DNA from: Aliiroseovarius sp.
GTDB taxonomy: Bacteria; Pseudomonadota; Alphaproteobacteria; Rhodobacterales; Rhodobacteraceae
DNA: 64,000 nt
NCBI RefSeq assembly: GCF_030148435.1
Contig: NZ_JASBTN010000001.1
Location: forward strand, 62,001 to 126,000
Direction of reading: 5' to 3'
The notes under the pieces were generated by a model. That model saw only the letters and a program-made list of their open reading frames with translations. It was not told the origin of the DNA and did no database searches. A program made the position numbers and the translations under genes. Below are positions 46,268-57,792 of this stretch, one piece after another; position 1 is the stretch's first letter; each line of letters begins with the position of its first letter.

Positions 46268-47059
<792 letters not shown>

Positions 47060-47070
47060 TGATGCCTCCC

Positions 47071-47826
47071 TCAATGCGCCTCACCCAGATAGGCCTCTTG
47101 GACCTTCGGATGACCTTTGATGTTTTCCGGCGTGTCCTCGACCAGGGGCGTGCCCTGGGCCAGGACGGTGATGCGCTCGGCCAGCGAGAACACCACGTGC
47201 ATGTCATGTTCGATGATCGCCATGGTGATGTCGCGCTTCTCGTTGATTTCCTTCAGAAGGTCGATCGTGTTGTTGGTATCGGCGCGCGCCATGCCCGCAG
47301 TGGGCTCGTCGAGCAGCAGGAGTTTCGGGTCCTGCACCAGGCACATGGCCATTTCGAGCCGCCGCTTGTCACCCCGCGACATCGAGGCCGCGTTCATGTG
47401 GCGCTTGTCGATCATGTTCACGTCGATCAGCATCTGCTCGGCCTTTTCGACCAGTTCCTTCTCGTTCTCCACACCTTCGAAGGCATGCATGCGGAAGGCG
47501 CCGTCGCGCTTGGCAAAGCAGGGGATCATCATGTTTTCCATGACGTCCAGATCTCCGAAGATTTCCGGGGTCTGGAACACGCGGGAGATGCCCATCTGAT
47601 TGATCTCGTGCGGCGTTCGGCCCAGCACCGACTGCCCGTTGAACAGGACCGAGCCCTCGTCAGGGATGAGCTTGCCCACAAAGCAGTTCAGCAGAGTGGA
47701 CTTGCCCGCGCCGTTCGGCCCGATAATGGCATGCACGGAGTTTTCCTGGACCGAGAGGTTCACGTTGCCAAGCGCCTGAAGGCCCCCGAAACGTTTCCCC
47801 ACGCCTTTGACTTCAAGAAGTCCCAT
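47071..47826 (-). CDS. livG: Branched-chain amino acid-type ABC transporter ATP-binding protein LivG
   Basis: A 251-residue LivG-type ATPase: Walker A GPNGAGKST, signature MSRGDKRRLEMAMCL and Walker B LLLDEPTAGM. The signature MSRGDKR differs from the usual LSYGQQR form; this variant is seen in some urea/amide-class Liv systems. It overlaps no neighbour but lies 11 bp before livF and 14 bp after livM. Confidence 0.93.
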   Translation of the reverse strand: MGLLEVKGVGKRFGGLQALGNVNLSVQENSVHAIIGPNGAGKSTLLNCFVGKLIPDEGSVLFNGQSVLGRTPHEINQMGISRVFQTPEIFGDLDVMENMMIPCFAKRDGAFRMHAFEGVENEKELVEKAEQMLIDVNMIDKRHMNAASMSRGDKRRLEMAMCLVQDPKLLLLDEPTAGMARADTNNTIDLLKEINEKRDITMAIIEHDMHVVFSLAERITVLAQGTPLVEDTPENIKGHPKVQEAYLGEAH

Positions 47827-47840
47827 CTTTCAGCCTCCTC

Positions 47841-49052
47841 TTATTCAGCCACGTGCGGCGATTGTTTCGGTTGATGCTCGGGGTCATCGATGTCTTCGTC
47901 CGACTTGCCGCGCTTGAACAGTCCCGCCAGTTTCTGGCCACCTTCGACCAGGCCACCGGGCAGGAAGATCACGACCAGCATGAACAGCAGACCCGAGGTC
48001 AGGTGCCAGCCCGAGCCGACGAAGTATTCCGCGACCCAGACCACCGCGCCTTCCAGCCCGTCCGGCAGGAAGCCGAACCACTGGCGCAAGACCTGTTCGT
48101 TGATCTTCGAGAAGATGTTCTCGAAATACTTGATGAAGCCTGCGCCCAGAACCGGGCCCATCATGGTCCCGAGGCCGCCCAGAATGGTCATCAGGACAAC
48201 TTCACCCGAGGCGGTCCACTGCATGCGCTCAGCACCGGCCAGCGGGTCCATTGCAGCCAGCAGGCCACCGGCCAGACCGGCATACATGCCCGAGATCACG
48301 AAGGCCGCCAGCGTATAGGGGCGCGCGTTCAGCCCGGTGTAGTTCAGACGGGTCTGGTTGGTCTTGATTGCGCGCAGCATCAGGCCGAAGGGCGAGCGGA
48401 AGATCCGCAGGCTCAGGTAGAAGGCCAGGATCGCGATCACGGCAGAGAAGTAGTAGCCGTTGTTGAAGGTGAACTCCCACGCGCCGATGTCGGCGACCCA
48501 GAAATTCTCGCGCATGACGATGCCGAAGAAATGCGGGCTCTGCGGCTCGTTGGCGCCCATCAGGATCTGCACGTCATCGGTATAGACCTGCAGGCCGGTT
48601 TCCCCATTGGTGATCGGGGTCAGAACCGAATAGGCCAGGTTGTAGCTCATCTGCGCGAAGGCCAGCGTCAGGATCGAGAAGTAGATGCCCGAGCGGCGCA
48701 GCGAGACGAATCCGATCAGCAGCGCGAAGAGGCCGGAGGTGATGATCGCCAGCGGCAGGCCCCAGATCACGTTGTAGTCCAGAAGCTTGTACATCCAGAC
48801 GACCGTGTAGGAGCCCACGCCCAGGAAGGCCGCGTGGCCAAAGGACAGGTAGCCGGTGAGGCCGAAAAGGATGTTGAAGCCGATTGCAAAGATGCCGAAG
48901 ATCGCGAAACGCTGCATCAGGTCCGGGTAGCCGGCGTTGAACTGAGCGAGGCTCGAGCCTTCGGGGAAGGGTTGCAGAATGATCGGTGTCAGCAGCGTCA
49001 GCGCGATGACAATTAACAGGAAGCGGGTGTCTTTCTTGTTCAGTCCCAGCAT
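47841..49052 (-). CDS. livM: Branched-chain amino acid-type ABC transporter permease LivM
   Basis: A 403-residue permease with about ten membrane helices and the LivM signature [19 protein letters not shown] and [17 protein letters not shown]. Between two helices (about residues 145-205) is a longer hydrophilic section (around [17 protein letters not shown]) that should be extracytoplasmic. The C-terminal cytoplasmic tail is charged. It starts three bases after livH. Confidence 0.93.
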
Positions 49053-49055
49053 GTC

Positions 49056-50087
49056 TTAGTCCTCCATCACGCCTTTGCGGCCCATCAGGCCACGCGGCCG
49101 CGTCAGCAGGATCGCGATGGCAACAAGGTAGATGATGATCTGGTCGATGCCCGGGATCATCGATTTGATCCAGTTCATCGAAGCGAAGCTTTCCAGGATG
49201 CCCAGCATGAAGCCGGCCAGCACCGCCCCGGGCAGGGAGCCCATGCCGCCGACAACGACCACGACGAAGGACAGCACCAGGAAGTCCATGCCCATGTGGT
49301 AGTTGGGCGAGTTGATCGGTGCATACATCACACCCGCCAGCCCCGCGACCGCGGCGGCCAGACCGAACATGATGGTGAAACGCTTGTCGATGTTGATGCC
49401 CAGCAGGCCCACGGTCTCGCGGTCCGCCATGCCGGCACGCACGACCATGCCGAAGGTGGTGAATTGCAGGAAGGCAAACACCGCGGCGACGATCACGGCA
49501 GCGAAACCGAAATAGACCATGCGCCAGTAGGGGTAGATGATCAGGTTCGGATCGAAGCCCAGCAGAACACCGAAGTCGAACGAGCCCTTGAAGGCCTCTG
49601 GTGCACCGGTCTGGATCGGGTTGGCGCCGAACCAGTGTTTCACCAGCTCCTGCAACACGATGGCCAGGCCGAACGTGACCAGGATCTGGTCGGCGTGGGG
49701 ACGTTTGTAGAAATGCTTGATCAGGCCGCGCTCCATGATGAAGCCGACCAGAAGCATGATCGGGATCGAGAAGAGGATCGCCAGCGGCACCGACCAGTCG
49801 ATGATCGCCGCACCTGTTTCGGGTCCGAACCAGCTTTCGATGTAAGGCGTTTTCACCTTCAGTGGGTTGCCCAGAAAGTCCGTTCTGGTCGGGTCGACCG
49901 TTTCGAAGGACAGGCTCAGGAGGCGCTGCAGCGAAACGGCACAGAAGGCGCCGATCATGAACAGCGCCCCGTGGGCGAAGTTCACCACGCCCAGCGTGCC
50001 GAAGATCAAAGTAAGCCCAAGCGCGATCAGCGCGTAGGCTGAGCCCTTGTCGAGCCCGTTCAGGATTTGAAGAAGGATGGCGTCCAT
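49056..50087 (-). CDS. livH: Branched-chain amino acid-type ABC transporter permease LivH
   Basis: A 343-residue permease; NGLDKGSAYALIALGLTLIFG and VVNFAHGALFMIGAF mark the LivH N-terminus, and MYAPINSPNYHMGMDFLVLSF with GGMGSLPGAVLAG the C-terminal half. An extra loop (about residues 55-85) carries FGPETGAAI. ATG 50087 has GGTGGGG upstream; the frame is open to 50129. A large hairpin separates it from the receptor gene. Confidence 0.93.
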   Translation of the reverse strand: MDAILLQILNGLDKGSAYALIALGLTLIFGTLGVVNFAHGALFMIGAFCAVSLQRLLSLSFETVDPTRTDFLGNPLKVKTPYIESWFGPETGAAIIDWSVPLAILFSIPIMLLVGFIMERGLIKHFYKRPHADQILVTFGLAIVLQELVKHWFGANPIQTGAPEAFKGSFDFGVLLGFDPNLIIYPYWRMVYFGFAAVIVAAVFAFLQFTTFGMVVRAGMADRETVGLLGINIDKRFTIMFGLAAAVAGLAGVMYAPINSPNYHMGMDFLVLSFVVVVVGGMGSLPGAVLAGFMLGILESFASMNWIKSMIPGIDQIIIYLVAIAILLTRPRGLMGRKGVMED

Positions 50088-50147
50088 TGTCCCCACCTTT
50101 GGATGAAACCGCTCCCCCCGGGTCGCCATGCGGCGCCGGTCAGGGGT

Positions 50148-50175
50148 GGTCGCGCGGGGGATATCCCGCGCGACC
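50148..50175 (-). terminator. Long intercistronic hairpin between the receptor gene and livH
   Basis: GGTCGCGCGGG (50148-50158) and CCCGCGCGACC (50165-50175) form a perfect 11-bp stem with a six-base loop, 33 bases after the receptor stop. No T-run follows, so it more likely protects the 3' end of the receptor mRNA or causes partial termination. Confidence 0.7.
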
Positions 50176-50207
50176 GATTGCTTTTAAGTGACTGATGTCG
50201 CTTGCGT

Positions 50208-51554
50208 TTACGCGCCTTCGTTGCAGGCGCCCAGATTGCCGCCAGCGAACATCGGGTGGTTCGGGTCGTAAGTGACCTGCTCCACCGGGGTGACTTCCAC
50301 GACTTCCAGAAGGTCGAATTCCGAAGTCGGGTTCTCCTTGCCGCGCACGACCAGAACGTCCTTGAAGCACTGGTGGTCGTCGGCACGGTAGGTGGTCTTG
50401 CCGTTGCCCAGCCCGTCGAACTCGAAGCCTTCGAGGGCCTCGACCACGCCGCAGGGGTTGAAGGTGCCGGCGCGTTCACAGGCGTCGGCATAAAGCAGGG
50501 TCTGGCAGTAGACCGTATGAGCGGCCTGCGACGGCGGGAAGCCGTACTTGGTGCCGAAGGATTTCACGAAGGCCTGCGAGCCTTCATCGGTCAGCGACCA
50601 GTGCCAGTTGGTGGAGCCAAGGATCCCCTTGATGTTTTCACCAGCACCACGGGCCATCAGGCGCGAGAACAGCGGCACGACGATTTCGAAGTTGCGGCCG
50701 TTCACCTGCTTTTCGCGCAGGCCGAACTGCACGGCGTTGGTCAGGGAGTTCACCATGTTGCCGCCATAGTGGTTCAGGACCAGCACGTCGGCATCCGTCT
50801 GCAGCACCGGGGTGATGTAGGACGAGAAGTCGGTCGCGGCCAGCGGCGTCTTGACCGTGTTGACGGTCTCCCAGCCCAGGGCCTCGGTCGAGGCGACGAT
50901 CGATTCTTCCTGGGTCCAGCCCCAGGTGTAGTCGGCGGTCAGGTGATAGGCCTTGCGGTCGGAGCCGTAACGTGCGGCCAGCACCGGGGCCAGGGCGGCG
51001 CCCGACATGTAGGCGTTGAAGAAATGCCGGAAACCGTTCGCCTTCTTGTCCTTGCCGGTGGTGTCGTTCGAGTGGGTCAGGCCGGCCATGAAGATGACGC
51101 CGGCTTCCTGGCACAGGCCCTGCACGGCAATCGCGACGCCCGAGGACGAGCCGCCGGTGATCATCACCGCGCCATCTTTTTCGATCATCGACTTGGCCGA
51201 GGCGCGCGCCGCGTCCGATTTGGTCTGGGTGTCGCCGGTCACATATTCGACCTTCTTGCCCAGGATGCCGTTGCCCTGCAGCGCTTTCGAGCTGAAGGTG
51301 TTCATCATGCCGCCGTCACCTTCGCCGTTCAGGTGTTCGACCGCAAGTTGATAGGCGCGCAGTTCATCCGCGCCCTCGTCCGCATAGGGGCCCGACTGGG
51401 GCACGTTGAAGCCCAGCGTGACTGAGCTACCCATCGGCTCGTTCGTATAGGCCGCGGCCGACGAGGCGGTGAAGATGGTCGGCAGGGCGACACCGGCACC
51501 GGCGACGGCGCCGGATTTCAGCACGCCACGGCGGGTGAAGTTCGAGTTGGACAT
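50208..51554 (-). CDS. ABC transporter substrate-binding protein, Liv type, with Tat signal
   Basis: A 448-residue periplasmic receptor. The N-terminus has a twin-arginine signal (NFTRRGVLKSGAVAGAGVAL then Ala-rich to ASSAAA), so it is exported folded. The mature part follows type I periplasmic-binding protein order: VTLGFNVPQSGPYADEGADE, GGSSSGVAIAVQGLCQEAG, LTADYTWGWTQEESIV. This class binds branched-chain amino acids, amides, urea or other small carboxylates; the ligand here is unknown. GGAGG precedes ATG 51554. It is divergent from the XRE regulator. Confidence 0.92.
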   Translation of the reverse strand: MSNSNFTRRGVLKSGAVAGAGVALPTIFTASSAAAYTNEPMGSSVTLGFNVPQSGPYADEGADELRAYQLAVEHLNGEGDGGMMNTFSSKALQGNGILGKKVEYVTGDTQTKSDAARASAKSMIEKDGAVMITGGSSSGVAIAVQGLCQEAGVIFMAGLTHSNDTTGKDKKANGFRHFFNAYMSGAALAPVLAARYGSDRKAYHLTADYTWGWTQEESIVASTEALGWETVNTVKTPLAATDFSSYITPVLQTDADVLVLNHYGGNMVNSLTNAVQFGLREKQVNGRNFEIVVPLFSRLMARGAGENIKGILGSTNWHWSLTDEGSQAFVKSFGTKYGFPPSQAAHTVYCQTLLYADACERAGTFNPCGVVEALEGFEFDGLGNGKTTYRADDHQCFKDVLVVRGKENPTSEFDLLEVVEVTPVEQVTYDPNHPMFAGGNLGACNEGA

Positions 51555-51682
51555 GTAATTCCTCCCTTTGATTAATGTGCAGCACTCCTCCTCCGAATGC
51601 GGCACAGACTCTTTACAGAGCCCTTTCATGTTAGGGGGTGATTGGAAAATTTCGCAACAAATGCTTTTGACGCAACATTTTT

Positions 51683-51726
51683 TTTGTAAACAAATCTACT
51701 ATGCTGTGATAGCATTTGTTAACGAA
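51683..51726. promoter_or_regulatory. Palindrome cluster between the receptor gene and the XRE regulator
   Basis: Three inverted repeats in an A+T-rich gap: TTTGTAAACAAA (51683-51694), ATGCT-GTGAT-AGCAT (51701-51715) and TTTGTTAACGAA (51715-51726). The first and third share a TTTGT half-site and their centres are 32 bp apart, about three helical turns. They are likely sites for the XRE/ScfR-type regulator and possibly shared with the Liv operon promoter. Confidence 0.5.
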
Positions 51727-51768
51727 TTTTCGCGCACTTGCAGAAAGTGTCGAGAAACACGGGATAAA

Positions 51769-53064
51769 ATGATGCCGCAGTCACGATTGACCGGGAGCAG
51801 AATTCGCGAACGCCGTATGGTGCGGGGCATCCGGCAGGCCGATCTGGCCCGCACGGTCGGAATTTCGCCCGCCTACCTCAATCTGATCGAACATAATCGA
51901 CGCAGAATCGGCGGCAAGCTGCTGGTGGACATTGCCCGCGAACTGGGCGCCGAGCCTGTCAGCCTGACCGAAGGCGCCGAAGCCGCGCTGCTGGGCGCCT
52001 TGCGCGATGCGGCGGGACGGCGCCCGGACCAGGACGTGGAACTGGACCGGACCGAGGGTTTCGCGGGACGCTTTCCCGGCTGGGCCGGGCTGGTGGCCGC
52101 GCAGCACGGGCGGATCGAGGAATTGGAACGCCTGGTTGAAAGCCTGTCGGACCGGCTGACCCATGACCCGCATCTGGCCGCTTCGCTGCACGAGGTATTG
52201 TCAACCGTGACCGCGATCCGCTCGGCGGCGTCGATCCTGACCGACACGACCGATATTGACCCCGACTGGCAGGCGCGGTTCCTGCGCAACGTGGGCGAGG
52301 ACAGCGCGCGCCTGACCGACAGTGCACAGGGGTTGGTCGACTATCTTGAAGCCGGCAGTGATGTAGAAGAGACGCCGATCTCCCCGCAGGAGGAGGTCGC
52401 GGCCTTTCTGGACGGGATCGGTTTTCACATCCCCGCGCTGGAAAGCGGCGAAGGGGATCCGGAGGCAATGGCCGAGGCCTCGGAGGCTCTGCACACCTCC
52501 GCGGCCCGCGACATGGCTGCGCGCATGCTGGCGCGCTATCAGGCCGATGCGCGCAACATGCCCGGACCCCGTTTTGCCGCTGCCTGGGCGCAAAGCCGCG
52601 ATCCCGGCCAGGTGGCTGCACGGTTCCATGTCGATCCGGCCGCAGTGCTGCGCCGGGTGGCGGCGCTGAAAAGCGGTCCGACCTGCGGGCTTGTGATCTG
52701 CGATGGCTCGGGAGCGTTGAGTTTCCGCAAGCCGGTCGAAGGCTTTTCGATCCCGCGTTTCGGCACCGGCTGTCCGCTCTGGCCGCTATATCAGGCGCTG
52801 ACGCGCCCGTCGCAGCCCATTCGGACCCGGGTCGAGATGCCCGGACGCACCCCGCGCCGCTTTATCTGTCTGGCGATCTGTCAGCCGCAGGCCGCGCCCA
52901 GTTTCGATGCGCCGCCGGTTTTCGAAGCGACCATGCTGATCCTGCCGGAGGATCCGATGGCCGAAACCGAGCCGGGCTTGCCGGTGGGGGGCTCCTGCCG
53001 CGTCTGTCCGCGCGAAGTCTGCGGCGCGCGGCGCGAACCGTCGATCCTGTCGGGCCGGGGTTGA
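51769..53064 (+). CDS. XRE-family regulator, ScfR-like, with a histidine-kinase DHp-like middle region
   Basis: A 431-residue protein. Residues about 9-62 are an XRE/Cro helix-turn-helix (GSRIRERRMVRGIRQADLA, then PAYLNLIEHNRRRIGG). The C-terminus (about 300-431) resembles the DUF2083 domain of short-chain fatty-acyl regulators and ends with a cysteine cluster (Cys410, Cys413, Cys418). The HExxH of the usual middle IrrE-like domain is absent. Instead residues about 136-195 look like a kinase dimerisation helix pair: HEVLSTVTAI with His141-Glu142, then RNVGEDSARLTDSAQGLVDY. No ATP-binding domain is present. Neighbours are a receiver protein and a sensor kinase on the same strand. The start could be either of two adjacent ATGs. 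Confidence 0.8.
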   Translation: MMPQSRLTGSRIRERRMVRGIRQADLARTVGISPAYLNLIEHNRRRIGGKLLVDIARELGAEPVSLTEGAEAALLGALRDAAGRRPDQDVELDRTEGFAGRFPGWAGLVAAQHGRIEELERLVESLSDRLTHDPHLAASLHEVLSTVTAIRSAASILTDTTDIDPDWQARFLRNVGEDSARLTDSAQGLVDYLEAGSDVEETPISPQEEVAAFLDGIGFHIPALESGEGDPEAMAEASEALHTSAARDMAARMLARYQADARNMPGPRFAAAWAQSRDPGQVAARFHVDPAAVLRRVAALKSGPTCGLVICDGSGALSFRKPVEGFSIPRFGTGCPLWPLYQALTRPSQPIRTRVEMPGRTPRRFICLAICQPQAAPSFDAPPVFEATMLILPEDPMAETEPGLPVGGSCRVCPREVCGARREPSILSGRG

Positions 53065-53180: not shown

Positions 53181-53558
53181 ATGGCCAAAAAGGTTCTTGT
53201 CATCGAGGACGAACCGAACATCGTCGAAGCCATCAGCTTCATCCTCAGCCGTGATGGCTGGGACGTATCCGTCCATGCCAATGGTGAAACCGCCGCCGAT
53301 ACCGTCCGGGGGGGCGCGCCGGATGTGCTGATCCTCGACGTGATGCTGCCCGGCCGCTCCGGTTTCGAGATCCTGCAGGAACTGCGTGGCGAAGAGGCCA
53401 CCGCCGACCTGCCCGTTCTGATGCTGACCGCGCGTGGGCAGAAGAAGGACCGCGATCTGGCCGCGCGCCTGGGCGTTACCCGTTTCATGACCAAGCCCTT
53501 CGCCAATGCCGAGGTGCTGGAGGCCGTGCGTGACCTGGCCGGCAATCCCGCCTCGTGA
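53181..53558 (+). CDS. Single-domain response regulator
   Basis: A 125-residue receiver with no output domain. The acidic pocket is EDE at residues 9-11, the phospho-acceptor is Asp53 in LILDVMLPG, the conserved Thr is in MLTARGQ, and the Lys in MTKPFANAE. GGAGGGAC precedes ATG 53181. Its stop overlaps the next GTG start (GTGA). It is probably phosphorylated by the sensor kinase two genes downstream and acts by protein contact. Confidence 0.94.
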   Translation: MAKKVLVIEDEPNIVEAISFILSRDGWDVSVHANGETAADTVRGGAPDVLILDVMLPGRSGFEILQELRGEEATADLPVLMLTARGQKKDRDLAARLGVTRFMTKPFANAEVLEAVRDLAGNPAS

Positions 53559-53878
53559 GCGGCGGACGCGAACCGCTTTTCCTGGCCCGCCAGACCTATC
53601 GCCGCCGCCGCGTGGCGGATGCCGCACGTTTGTTGCCGCTGCTGGGGGTTCTTCTGTTCATGCTCCCCCTGCTGGGCGCCGCCGGGGCCGGAAACGGTGG
53701 CGAAGGGACCGGCTCGACTTCGATCGGGGGCATCTACATCTTTGCGGTCTGGGGCGGTCTGATCCTGGCGGCCGCATTGCTGTCGGGGCCGCTCTCGGCA
53801 GGCAATCCTGCGCCGTCCGGCAACGACGGAGAGACACCGGAGACGACCAGAACGCGTGATACGGAAGGGCGCGGCTGA
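53555..53878 (+). CDS. Small two-helix membrane protein next to a symporter-type kinase
   Basis: A 107-residue protein with a basic N-terminus (LFLARQTYRRRRVADAARLL), two hydrophobic helices (about 26-44 and 60-80) and a polar C-terminal tail. I recognise no named domain. Small two-helix proteins (DUF485/DUF4212) often precede SLC5-type symporters such as ActP, and this gene overlaps the SLC5-kinase gene by one base, so it may be a partner of its membrane domain. GTG start overlapping the response-regulator stop. Confidence 0.78.
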   Translation: MSGGREPLFLARQTYRRRRVADAARLLPLLGVLLFMLPLLGAAGAGNGGEGTGSTSIGGIYIFAVWGGLILAAALLSGPLSAGNPAPSGNDGETPETTRTRDTEGRG

Positions 53879-56625
53879 TGCTGGGCTACAATCTGTTGGT
53901 CCTGGTTTGCCTGCTTTACGTGGCCACGCTTTTCGTCGTGGCCTATGGCGCGGACAAGCGCGCGCGGGAGGGGCGCGACGGTGCGGCCTGGCTGCGCAGC
54001 CCCTGGGTTTATACCCTGTCACTGTCCGTCTATTGTACCGCCTGGACCTTTTATGGCGCGGTGGGCTACGCGGCGCGCAGCGGGTTGGAGTTCGTCACCA
54101 TCTACCTTGGCCCGACCTTGATCATGGTGGGCTGGTGGTGGCTTCTGCGCAAACTGGTGCGGATCGGACGGGCGCAACGTGTCACCTCGGTCGCCGACCT
54201 GATTTCCTCGCGCTATGGCAAGTCGAACCTGCTGGGTGTGATCGTCACCCTGCTGGCGGTCATTGGCACCACGCCCTATATCGCGCTGCAACTTCAATCT
54301 GTTACCCTGTCATTTGCAGTCTTTGCGGCCGAGCGCGGCTCCGGTACCGGTGGGGATCTGGTGGCCGAAGTGCCCGACCTCAACGCCACCGCGCTCTGGG
54401 TTGCGGCGGGGCTTGCGGTATTCACCGTGGCTTTCGGGACCCGCAATCTCGATGCCAACGAACGCCATCACGGTGTGGTCACGGCGATTGCGGTCGAAGC
54501 GGTGGTCAAGCTGATCGCCCTGCTGGCGGTTGGTATCTTCGTGGTTTGGGGCGTTGCCGGTGGCCCGGGTGAAATCGCACGCACGATCGACAGTTCCGCG
54601 ATCGCCGATTGGGAGCTCAAACCGGGCCGCTGGGTCAGCCTGACCTTCCTGTCCGCCGCCGCGTTCCTGACTCTGCCGCGCATGTTCCAGGTGTTGGTGG
54701 TCGAGAACGTGGACGAGCGCCAGCTCGCCACGGCCTCCTGGGCCTTCCCGGCCTATCTGTTCGCGATGAGCCTCTTTGTCGTGCCCATCGCCGTTGTCGG
54801 GCTGAACATCCTGCCCCAGGATGCCAACCCGGACCTTTTCGTGCTGACCGTCCCCCTGCATTTTGAGAAGGAAAGCCTGGCCATGCTGTCCTTCCTCGGC
54901 GGGTTCAGCTCGGCCACTTCGATGGTCATCGTGGCGGCCATTGCCCTGTCGACCATGGTGTCGAACCACATCGTCATGCCGATCTGGCTGTCCCTGCGCA
55001 GCGACGGGGCCTCGATGTCCGGCGACGTGCGCAACCTTCTGCTGGTCTCGCGGCGTCTGTCGATCGCCGGCGTGCTGCTGCTGGGCTATCTTTATTTCAG
55101 GGTCTCGGGCGGCGGTGCGGCGCTGGCATCCATCGGCCTGGTCTCCTTCGCCGGTGTGGCCCAGGTCCTGCCCGCGCTTTTGGGCGGTATCTTCTGGCGT
55201 GGTGCTTCGCGCAATGGGGCGGCGGTGGGGCTGGTTGGTGGCTTCGTCGTCTGGGTTTACGGTCTTTTCCTGCCCAGTTTCGGCCCCGACGGAATAATGT
55301 CGGCAGAGCTGCTCGCAAATGGCCCCTGGGGCATCGGCTGGCTGCGCCCGCAGGCGCTCTTCGGTCTCGACATCATGGATCCGCTGGTGCACGCGCTGTT
55401 CTGGTCCATGGTGGTCAACACGACCCTGTTTCTGACCGTCAGCCTGCTGAGCTTTCCCAATCCGCTGGAACGTCTGCAAGGTGCACAATTCGTCAACGTG
55501 TTCGAACATTCCGGCTCGGCGCGCGGCTGGACGCAAAGCCGGGCCCAGGCAGAAGACCTGATGATCATGGCTCAGCGCATCATGGGCCCGTCGGAGGCCC
55601 AGGCCCTGTTCGAGGAGCAGGCCGCCGCCCAGGGCAAGGAAGGCTTCCTGCCCGAACCTACCCCCGGGTTCATCGAGCTTCTGGAACGCGAGCTGTCAGG
55701 CTCGGTCGGCGCGGCCACGGCCCATGCGATGGTCGGCCAGATCGTCGGCGGTGCTTCGGTGTCGGTCAAGGACCTGATGGCCGTGGCGGATGAAACCGCG
55801 CAGATGCTGGAATACTCCTCGCGGCTCGAGGTGCAGTCCGAGGAACTGACCCGCACCGCCCGCCAGCTGTCCGAGGCGAATGACAAGCTGACCCAGCTGT
55901 CGATCCAGAAGGACGCCTTTCTGAGCCAGATCAGCCATGAACTGCGCACGCCGATGACTTCGATCCGTTCGTTCTCGGAACTTTTGCGCGATGGCGACAT
56001 GGACCCCGAGGCCAGCCGGCGTTTCAGCTCGATCATCCATGACGAGGCGCTGCGCCTGACCCGGCTGCTGGATGATCTCTTGGACCTCTCGGTGCTGGAA
56101 GCGGGCCACGTGACCCTGCACCCCCAGGCCGACAACCTGAGGGCGGTGCTGGACCGGGCCGTGGCAGCGACCACTTCGGTGGGCGAGGCCGCCGGGATCG
56201 AAATCCGGCGCAAGGGCATCTATGAGGATGTGCCGATCCACACCGACACGGACCGTCTGGCGCAGGTTTTCATCAACCTGATCGCGAATGCGATCAAGTA
56301 TTGCGATGCCGAACAGCCCCGGCTGAAGATCCTTGTCACCCATCGCGGCGATCGGCTGCATGTGGATTTCATCGACAATGGCTCGGGCATTCCCAAGCAG
56401 AGCCAGTCGGTGATCTTCGAGAAATTCTCGCGCCTGTCGGATCAGGCCAAGGCAGGAGGTGCCGGGCTGGGCCTGGCGATCTGCCGTGAGATCATGGACA
56501 AGCTGGGGGGCAAGGTTTCGTACCTGCCGGGGCAGGGCGGGGCGGCTTTCCGCGTGACCCTGCCGCGCGCGCCGCTGAGGGCGGGTGAACGCCAGTTGAG
56601 TGCCGCCGGTCTAAACCATTTGTAA
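53878..56625 (+). CDS. SLC5 (Na+/solute symporter)-STAC sensor histidine kinase
   Basis: A 915-residue membrane sensor. The N-terminal half (about 1-520) is a sodium/solute symporter domain with 12 or 13 helices (SVYCTAWTFYGAVGYAARSG, LGGFSSATSMVIVA). About residues 600-640 match a STAC linker (SGSVGAATAHAMVGQIV). A coiled coil leads to the DHp domain with His687 in SQISHELRTPM, followed by the ATPase domain: N box NLIANAIKY, DNGSGIPKQSQ, and GAGLGLAICREIM. This is the CbrA-like plan in which transport or binding of a solute controls the kinase. It is part of a gene set with a receiver, a small membrane protein and probably the XRE regulator. Confidence 0.93.
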   Translation: MLGYNLLVLVCLLYVATLFVVAYGADKRAREGRDGAAWLRSPWVYTLSLSVYCTAWTFYGAVGYAARSGLEFVTIYLGPTLIMVGWWWLLRKLVRIGRAQRVTSVADLISSRYGKSNLLGVIVTLLAVIGTTPYIALQLQSVTLSFAVFAAERGSGTGGDLVAEVPDLNATALWVAAGLAVFTVAFGTRNLDANERHHGVVTAIAVEAVVKLIALLAVGIFVVWGVAGGPGEIARTIDSSAIADWELKPGRWVSLTFLSAAAFLTLPRMFQVLVVENVDERQLATASWAFPAYLFAMSLFVVPIAVVGLNILPQDANPDLFVLTVPLHFEKESLAMLSFLGGFSSATSMVIVAAIALSTMVSNHIVMPIWLSLRSDGASMSGDVRNLLLVSRRLSIAGVLLLGYLYFRVSGGGAALASIGLVSFAGVAQVLPALLGGIFWRGASRNGAAVGLVGGFVVWVYGLFLPSFGPDGIMSAELLANGPWGIGWLRPQALFGLDIMDPLVHALFWSMVVNTTLFLTVSLLSFPNPLERLQGAQFVNVFEHSGSARGWTQSRAQAEDLMIMAQRIMGPSEAQALFEEQAAAQGKEGFLPEPTPGFIELLERELSGSVGAATAHAMVGQIVGGASVSVKDLMAVADETAQMLEYSSRLEVQSEELTRTARQLSEANDKLTQLSIQKDAFLSQISHELRTPMTSIRSFSELLRDGDMDPEASRRFSSIIHDEALRLTRLLDDLLDLSVLEAGHVTLHPQADNLRAVLDRAVAATTSVGEAAGIEIRRKGIYEDVPIHTDTDRLAQVFINLIANAIKYCDAEQPRLKILVTHRGDRLHVDFIDNGSGIPKQSQSVIFEKFSRLSDQAKAGGAGLGLAICREIMDKLGGKVSYLPGQGGAAFRVTLPRAPLRAGERQLSAAGLNHL

Positions 56626-56664: not shown

Positions 56665-57792
56665 GTGAGCAAAGGCATGCGTGACGATCTTGAGCTCAGC
56701 GCGATGCGCCGCAAAGCGGGGGCCGGGCGCCCTCCGCCCGAGATCGGGCGCGCGACCGCCGCCACTGCGCTGCGCGTGGCCGTCGCTCAGGCGGCCGAGG
56801 ATGTCGCGGCCCTGGTTGCCCTGGCTGCCGGGGTGCAGGAGGATCGTGTGGTGCGCGACAGTTTCATCCAGGCGCTTCCAGAACATGCGCTGCTGGCCCT
56901 GTGCGAAGGGGAAGGGGAACGGTACGGCATGGTCGTGATGGACCCCCAGACCCTGGCCGCCCTGATCGAAATCCAGACAACCGGCCGCGTCGTGCCGCAC
57001 AAGGCCGAGCCGCGCGCACCGACCCGCACAGACGCGATCCTGTCTGCCGATTTCATCAACCGGGTGCTGGAACTGTTTGCGGAACTCGCCGCCGAGGCCG
57101 CTCTGCCGGTCCTGCCCACCATCAAAGGGTTCCGCTATGTGCTGCCCCTTGAGGACGCCCGCGCGGTGGAAATGACGCTGGAAGATATTCCCTATCGCCA
57201 ATACACCCTGACCATGGACCTGGGCAGCGGGGCAAAGGAAGGGCAGCTACACCTGCTTTTCCCCTTTGACCCGCCCCGTCCTGCGGTCTCGGCCACGGCG
57301 AATATCGACGGGGGCACGGTTGGCGAAGCGGTGATGGAAGCCCATGCCGAGATTCACGCCGTTCTGCACCGTTTGGAATTGCCATTGACCGAGGTGGCCG
57401 ATCTGGTGCCCGGCGCGCTGGTCCCGGTTCCCCGCGCGGCCCTGTCCCGCGTGACCCTGGAGGGCATGACCGGGAAAGAGGTGTGCAAAGGGGGGCTTGG
57501 TCAGGTTGCCGGACACCGCGCCGTACGCCTCAGTGCCGAAGTGCCGGACAGTATCGCGGCGAAGGTCGGCGCGGACATGCCTGTGCCTCCCCCGCCCACT
57601 TTGCCGGGCGCGGCCACAAACGAACCGCCAGCCCCGCCCGCCATGCCTGTGGCAGGACTTTCTGACGTTCCGCCCGGACTGGGCGATCTGCCCGGAGAGG
57701 GCGCACCATCCCCACATGACGGTGAGAGGGAGCTTCCCCCGCTCGACGTTGCTCCCATCTCGATGAGTGACCTGCCTGAACCCGTGGGTTGA
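56665..57792 (+). CDS. FliM/FliN-like SpoA domain protein
   Basis: A 375-residue protein opening with MRRKAGAGRPPPEIG, as in the divergent FliM/FliN-family C-ring proteins of Rhodobacterales. A FliM-middle-like region (about 100-210, with RTDAILSADFINRVLELFAEL and RQYTLTMDLGSG) is followed by a SpoA-like domain (about 225-300, LHRLELPLTEVADLVPGALV) and a Pro-rich tail of about 75 residues. It would be a flagellar switch component or a moonlighting relative; no flagellar gene is adjacent. The start is uncertain: GTG 56665 or ATG 56677. Confidence 0.75.
   Translation: MSKGMRDDLELSAMRRKAGAGRPPPEIGRATAATALRVAVAQAAEDVAALVALAAGVQEDRVVRDSFIQALPEHALLALCEGEGERYGMVVMDPQTLAALIEIQTTGRVVPHKAEPRAPTRTDAILSADFINRVLELFAELAAEAALPVLPTIKGFRYVLPLEDARAVEMTLEDIPYRQYTLTMDLGSGAKEGQLHLLFPFDPPRPAVSATANIDGGTVGEAVMEAHAEIHAVLHRLELPLTEVADLVPGALVPVPRAALSRVTLEGMTGKEVCKGGLGQVAGHRAVRLSAEVPDSIAAKVGADMPVPPPPTLPGAATNEPPAPPAMPVAGLSDVPPGLGDLPGEGAPSPHDGERELPPLDVAPISMSDLPEPVG

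Follow-up and report, generated by a model that had tools for sequence, protein, structure and literature searches.

A HisKA-type hairpin inserted into an ScfR-type transcription factor: a candidate end point of a phosphorelay in Alphaproteobacteria

Why would a DNA-binding regulator without an ATPase domain carry a helical hairpin that resembles the phosphoacceptor module of a sensor histidine kinase, and from where could such a hairpin receive a phosphoryl group? This question is raised by a gene found in a 64,000-nucleotide stretch of DNA from Aliiroseovarius sp. (contig NZ_JASBTN010000001.1, positions 62,001 to 126,000; referred to here as the window), which presents the following features:

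51769..53064 (+): ScfR-type regulator with an inserted HisKA-type hairpin, 431 amino acids (translation, Pfam, NCBIfam, family alignment)
51802..51957 (+): XRE-type helix-turn-helix, residues 12-63 (Pfam HTH_3, E 1.1e-8)
52075..52164 (+): long helix running into the hairpin, residues 103-132 (AlphaFold2 model)
52168..52362 (+): HisKA/DHp-type helical hairpin, residues 134-198 (CreC model, HMM and profile matches, AlphaFold2, alignments)
52189..52191 (+): His141 codon; this residue is the predicted phosphoacceptor
52693..53046 (+): ScfRs C-terminal domain, residues 309-426 (Pfam, E 9.2e-13)

Both HTH_3 and ScfRs were above the Pfam cut-off in this regulator, which gives it the architecture of an ScfR protein, and both domains were matched in 74 of 74 close relatives (Pfam, E ≤ 1). 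The best PDB sequence match was PrpR, spanning residues 238-427, and the RamB model of NCBIfam matched the regulator in two separate stretches. Alignment with PrpR presented Cys335, Cys410, Cys413, and Cys418 as the equivalents of the four [4Fe4S] ligand cysteines named in the accessible text of PMC6765138; all four are invariant in the family alignment (74/74 close relatives). Judged from its sequence, the protein is an ScfR-type regulator, for which acyl-CoA binding and DNA binding are predicted. An earlier, sequence-only reading of this DNA had given the open reading frame, the stretch HEVLSTVTAI, and the pair His141-Glu142 exactly, and its observation that the regulator has no ATPase is borne out by the Pfam scan, which found no HATPase domain in it; because of this, the regulator is not considered a kinase. 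The same reading held that the metallopeptidase motif usual in the middle of ScfR proteins is missing. This is correct for the window regulator, in which Pfam found no M78/IrrE-like metallopeptidase-like middle domain (2 of 74 close relatives presented a match at E ≤ 1), but not for long relatives, which have the domain. Since it is present in long relatives and absent from the window protein, this domain appears to have been lost here; most of the M78-like part is gone from the regulator when it is aligned with L002, an ordinary ScfR protein of this genome.

Downstream of the regulator gene, three further genes lie on the same strand, so that the kinase is encoded three genes on (receiver 53181, small open reading frame 53555, kinase 53878), rather than two as had previously been thought:

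53181..53558 (+): single-domain response regulator, receiver only, 125 amino acids (Pfam, E 2.7e-25)
53555..53878 (+): small conserved operon protein, 107 amino acids (no Pfam match; in most loci adjacent to the kinase)
53878..56625 (+): SLC5-type sensor histidine kinase, 915 amino acids (HisKA and HATPase_c by Pfam; 10ed_A match)
55909..56106 (+): HisKA domain of this kinase (His687), in this genome the closest relative of the hairpin (HMM, profile, and profile-profile matches)

Asp10, Asp53, and Lys105 of the receiver are present in 171 of 171 sequences, and the protein extends by 20 residues (median; 17-51) beyond the KPF motif, with no output domain. Residues 7-469 of the kinase matched 10ed_A, a histidine kinase, at E 4.8e-65, the sole PDB match at E ≤ 10. 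The Pfam SSF model was above its cut-off in two of four homologous kinases (L313 and L315) and below it in L308, L311, and the window kinase; the kinase is referred to as SLC5-type because of the 10ed_A match and of SSF in these two homologues. A receiver domain was found in none of the 169 kinases of the set. The small protein encoded between receiver and kinase, judged by eye, crosses the membrane twice, and the transporter-like kinase may have it as a partner. Directly after the kinase lies a gene similar to the C-terminal part of FliM/FliN (56665-57792, +), a relative of which is found at this position in 62 of 80 loci.

Several sequence comparisons link the hairpin to histidine kinases. 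The CreC histidine kinase model (NCBIfam) matched residues 118-202 of the regulator (E 1.8e-5) as well as 54 of 54 hairpin sequences of alignment A2 (best E 1.2e-7), and the PnpS and PhoR models were matched by 27 and 9, respectively, of these 54 domain sequences (E ≤ 1). A domain HMM derived from 102 homologous regions scored the operon kinase at 23.4 bits, with a runner-up of 8.3 among the 21 HisKA loci of this genome, and the A2 profile (54 sequences) found two places in the whole genome at E ≤ 10, namely its own and the operon kinase (E 6.4e-6); with a broader profile, A3, the operon kinase was matched at E 1.6e-15. Profile-profile alignment placed His141 of the regulator opposite His687 of the kinase, with P values of 5.6e-5 against the kinase C-terminal part and 4.3e-5 against its DHp part (probability 66-69%), as compared to 0.73 for the transporter part and 0.034 for the ATPase part. 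The register at the level of residues rests on helix 1 and a shift test, in which the mean BLOSUM62 score against the kinase was 1.66 with His on His and at most -0.15 in 28 shifts. The sequence-only reading had described residues from about 136 to 195 as DHp-like and HEVLSTVTAI as parallel to the H-box of the operon kinase; the matches above agree with the former, and the latter is upheld by a helix 1 that scores positively solely in the His-on-His register. The Arg and Pro of the kinase H-box (R at +3, P at +5) are replaced in the regulator hairpin. Pfam HisKA (PF00512) gave no match at E ≤ 1 in the window regulator, so that its hairpin is called HisKA-derived, in the sense of homologous, and not a member of PF00512; at this threshold 14 of 74 close relatives were matched. 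A PDB sequence search with A2 (E ≤ 10) yielded five matches at E 0.22-0.79, none of them a kinase. We regard the DHp (HisKA-type) identity of the hairpin as strongly supported by these comparisons.

A monomer model of the regulator was obtained with AlphaFold2 from alignment A1, which consists of 74 sequences picked to reduce redundancy and omits, among others, six of the 80 contig loci. The model (mean pLDDT 87.6, pTM 0.65) presented helices at residues 103-132, 134-159, and 165-198, and matched PrpR over residues 204-431 (Z 19.6) as well as helix-turn-helix proteins. A model of the hairpin alone (mean pLDDT 73) resembled helical bundles such as FAT and vinculin most closely (Z up to 12.4); against HK853 (4jav_A) it reached a Z of 9.2 (68 aligned residues, rmsd 2.6). 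If the offset of the first aligned residues is carried through, His141 corresponds to residue 260 of HK853, the His of that kinase. A fold check had been proposed earlier for this region: the two-helix hairpin is indeed found in the monomer model, but fold comparison does not discriminate, and it was set aside as proof of a DHp fold, since FAT, vinculin, and other bundles scored above HK853. Covariation between hairpin and receiver (176 distinct pairs, Neff 91) placed 5 of the top 20 pairs on the presumed contact faces, versus 1.1 expected by chance, and 10 of the top 50 versus 2.9; the kinase-receiver control (165 pairs, Neff 52) placed 2 of 20 versus 1.6 and 2 of 50 versus 4.1, and because this control did not validate the test, covariation was not used as evidence.

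A search with A2 of 289 genomes of the class identified 38 with a match at E ≤ 1e-5, including 28 outside the family of the window organism that show a regulator-type frame, as read from the match rows. Loci were fetched for 26 of these 28 (the remaining two belong to a genus already taken), and the family HMM found the regulator in 26 of 26. Among the matches listed for 398 genomes of the phylum, those of regulator type are all within Alphaproteobacteria. Across these genomes the hairpin-bearing regulators form a conserved family and are not represented by one odd protein. A Pfam scan of ten hand-picked distant members found M78-like and ScfRs domains in all ten, no HATPase match in any, and HisKA above the Pfam cut-off in five (L234, L237, L239, L240, and L241; 31.9-38.7 bits versus a cut-off of 26.9). 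A degenerate HEXXH/IrrE motif, considered as another identity for the His-containing stretch, was ruled out because distant members hold a HisKA-type hairpin and an M78-like domain side by side. In L234, for example, the RamB model matched in two stretches, the best covering residues 223-534, and kinase-type matches lie ahead of it at 139-221; in the ordinary ScfR protein L002, RamB matched in one stretch and no kinase model was found at E ≤ 0.01. Compared to L002, the window protein and seven distant members carry a single insertion of about 65 residues, located after a helical linker and before an S/TPxEEV-like motif. In PrpR this site corresponds roughly to the end of DII (residues 81-152), which the accessible text of PMC6765138 describes as a possibly disordered linker. 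With profile A3, the matches listed after the regulators were frames of 839-1032 amino acids, down to E 2.8e-13; all four such frames fetched from outside the class shared 49-51.5% identity with the first 520 residues of the window kinase, and the hairpin is likely to have originated as a copy from a kinase of this type.

Of 80 Rhodobacteraceae contig loci, 79 have the receiver after the regulator and 78 have the kinase, with missing genes scored as misses and one contig (L112) ending ahead of the kinase; both genes are on the stretch in 17 of 18 more distant family members. Of the 26 loci of other families, 22 have a receiver on the stretch and 21 a kinase scoring at least 300 bits; in L234, L240, and L241 the two genes are on the opposite strand. 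The operon of regulator, receiver, small protein, and kinase recurs in many alphaproteobacterial families. The kinase (E ≤ 1e-60) was found in none of the 19 family genomes that lack an ScfR match at E ≤ 1e-5, in 6 of 20 genomes with weak ScfR matches (a picked subset, G004, G008, and G054 being among those left out), and in 5 of 5 with strong matches; three of the six weak-match genomes with the kinase (G017, G248, and G101) do have the regulator. Two more of these six, G023 (L312) and G194 (L314), have a related kinase and receiver, with no regulator on the fetched stretches around the kinase.

Conservation of His141 among orthologues had been set in advance as a test of the phosphotransfer idea, and the residue proved to be kept in 182 of 185 non-redundant homologues overall, in 101 of the 102 family-set sequences, and in 42 of 44 distant members. 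The two distant exceptions, L236 and L238, have Gln and count as one event since they come from one genus; no receiver or kinase was found on their fetched stretches, and their genomes carry kinase-type frames elsewhere. The third variant, L031, has Tyr although receiver and kinase adjoin it, suggesting that His141 is not absolutely needed; this locus represents a natural test case. In L066, L169, and L226, His is kept with no receiver or kinase adjoining, and the kinase or a kinase-type frame is found at another place in each genome. The residue at +1 is E or D in 152 of 185 homologues and E in 12 of 44 distant members, while S, T, or N occupies position +4 in all 44 distant members and in 184 of 185 homologues overall. 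The acidic residue at +1 has a role in self-phosphorylation of kinases; a constant His next to a drifting acidic neighbour would fit an acceptor that is not its own kinase.

Two features lie upstream of the regulator gene:

51685..51721 (+): twin TGTAA-type boxes 32 bp apart, predicted operator (divergent promoter; spacing recurs)
50208..51629 (-): binding protein of an ABC importer, divergent, with a common promoter region (Pfam Peripla_BP_6)

Two TGTAA words 32 bp apart were found in 71 of 102 upstream regions, and none at this distance in one set of shuffles; ScfR sites are described in the accessible text of PMC10370305 as two near-identical boxes with a spacer. The importer genes (46268-51629, -) encode the binding protein, two permeases, and two ATPases of the urea/branched-chain amino acid type. 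About 60 of 80 loci have an importer relative on the upstream side of the regulator, and the importer substrate may therefore be part of this circuit. Immediately ahead of the regulator gene, many relatives conserve a sequence that ends in GCAGAAA (about 51735-51750), perhaps a promoter element or a further site. The pattern TGTAA-N27-TGTWA occurs at two places in this genome, with no match to a control pattern; one is the promoter of the regulator, and the second place is upstream of the acetate-CoA ligase gene (acs), between an acetate/propionate-kinase gene and acs. In 61 family genomes, a stricter pair gave 57 matches, in 37 genomes, as compared to 28 for a control pattern, so that about half of the 57 may be due to chance. 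Among 30 pair loci listed, 16 are by the regulator, five upstream of acs, and nine at neither; five of six further pair loci, chosen by eye, are upstream of acs. Upstream of acs, the exact pair was found in 5 of 15 genomes with the regulator versus 0 of 15 without it, and a pair within one mismatch in 8 of 15 versus 1 of 15, in a comparison that was not blind, its genomes having been chosen with knowledge of the 61-genome search. In four genomes in which acs lacks the pair (G003, G009, G020, and G025), acs is encoded 5.5-6 kb away from the regulator and on the other strand, like the importer of the window; the same probably applies to G013, and G005 presents neither pair nor proximity. The shared twin boxes and, in some genomes, the proximity of acs to the regulator make acs a likely target, which the regulator may control through these boxes as a predicted operator.

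The explanation that we consider best, with a probability of about 0.57, is a relay that runs from the kinase through the lone receiver to His141 and thereby to acs. The linker of an ScfR transcription factor that senses acyl-CoA would have acquired a HisKA-type phosphoacceptor hairpin; having no ATPase, the factor would be unable to phosphorylate itself. The SLC5-type kinase would sense a carboxylate, probably acetate, and phosphorylate the receiver at Asp53; the receiver would then dock on the hairpin and hand the phosphoryl group to His141, in the direction of the Asp-to-His step of a phosphorelay. The C-terminal part with its four cysteines would read acyl-CoA in the manner of PrpR, and phosphorylation together with the acyl-CoA/iron-sulphur state would set the action of the factor at twin TTTGTAAA-like boxes, so that both inputs would converge in one DNA-binding protein at its own divergent (importer) promoter and at acs. 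That the hairpin is a phosphotransfer target of the receiver is indirectly suggested by the linkage, by an intact receiver without output, and by the likeness of the hairpin to that of the partner kinase. The explanation as a whole draws on what the sequences establish, namely homology to HisKA (above the Pfam cut-off in five of ten distant members), one insertion relative to an ordinary ScfR protein, a near-constant His141 beside a drifting +1 residue, the operon linkage, and twin boxes shared with acs. The Tyr of L031, the absence of neighbours in L066, L169, and L226, and the missing H-box Pro and Arg are evidence against a relay.

Some of these observations suit other explanations. The phosphorylated receiver could dock on the hairpin without lasting transfer and shift the oligomeric state of the regulator, or the hairpin could dephosphorylate the receiver, His141 being in either case part of the site. 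The HExxT motif, with its T, belongs to HisKA phosphatases, and the S, T, or N at +4 resembles this T; the linkage of regulator, receiver, and kinase would serve such docking equally well, and the Tyr of L031 also counts in its favour. A near-invariant His amid drifting neighbours, however, suggests chemistry at the His itself, and we consider docking alone rather unlikely. The likeness of the hairpin to that of the operon kinase might also mean that the ATPase domain of this kinase phosphorylates His141 directly in trans, with the receiver as a sink or phosphatase. This we regard as improbable, since the R (+3) and P (+5) that are fixed in the kinases are replaced in the regulator, the acidic residue at +1 drifts in distant members, and a receiver needed merely as a sink is nevertheless kept in 79 of 80 loci. 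Finally, the hairpin may be a structural remnant that serves dimerisation of the regulator, its likeness to kinases reflecting ancestry without signalling; the part aligned to PrpR DIII is shortened, so that a new dimer contact could be useful, and the Tyr of L031 and the two Gln members would fit. The persistence of His141 across families in which the domain is often just 30-40% identical to that of the window protein, and the linkage with receiver and kinase, argue against this explanation, the least probable of those considered here. The phosphorelay is thus the best reading of these sequences, and an unproven one. A wider claim, that a relay ending on the transcription factor's own His (an ScfR protein) joins external carboxylate and internal acyl-CoA at the acs promoter, arose by hairpin insertion, and is widespread in Alphaproteobacteria, seems to us about as probable as its opposite.

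The hairpin resembles the HisKA/DHp domain of sensor kinases in its two helices, its phosphoacceptor-type His, and its sequence homology, but it is located in a regulator without an ATPase domain and without the H-box Arg and Pro. Spo0B and ChpT are kinase-derived phosphotransferases, with a degenerate ATPase-like domain, in which a His acceptor stands between a receiver and the next step; they are separate go-betweens, whereas the hairpin here lies within the DNA-binding protein. The PRD regulators controlled by the PTS are likewise transcription regulators under phosphohistidine control; their phosphate comes from PTS proteins and not from a receiver, and the PRD domain is unrelated to the hairpin. 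ScfR classes were reportedly defined by Carter and Alber in 2015. The ScfR regulators RamB, PccR, and MccR/PrpR share with the window protein the XRE helix-turn-helix, the ScfRs domain, the four [4Fe4S] cysteines, and paired binding boxes (in the accessible text of PMC10370305; predicted boxes here), and differ from it in that the window protein has a hairpin in the linker, has lost the M78-like domain, and shares its operon with a receiver and a kinase. A paper from 2023 mentions, in its accessible text, an ScfR gene adjoining a two-component system, without following it up there; Pden_1785 is named in the accessible text of PMC10370305, and we found no other mention of it in the open-licence literature. 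No fusion of ScfR/XRE with HisKA, DHp, or HPt was reported in the titles or abstract openings of the papers found by searches of this literature.

The accessible texts of four papers (PMC5715377, PMC5436829, PMC7918813, and PMC9100948) describe how CrbS/CrbR, which consists of a hybrid kinase of SLC5 type and a regulator of LuxR type, controls acs. CrbS/CrbR (MxtR/ErdR) and the present operon have in common an SLC5-type kinase and acs as target, known for CrbR (in the accessible texts of PMC5715377 and PMC7918813) and predicted here. However, CrbS is a hybrid kinase and CrbR is LuxR-type (PMC9100948, accessible text), whereas the window operon has a kinase devoid of a receiver domain, a free-standing receiver, and, as DNA binder, an ScfR protein with a HisKA hairpin. 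Because the receiver has no output domain and the kinases have no receiver, the system was not assigned to CrbS/CrbR; the best reading is a CrbS/CrbR-like task with an unusual relay ending.

In known phosphorelays, the last acceptor is usually an Asp of a response regulator that itself binds DNA. The window operon would turn this order round, with a His-type acceptor in its DNA-binding protein and a response regulator that lacks an output domain. If this is true, it would assign a task to an output-less receiver, provide an example of direct control of a transcription factor by phosphohistidine, and identify a circuit that probably controls acetate use among Rhodobacteraceae as well as other Alphaproteobacteria.
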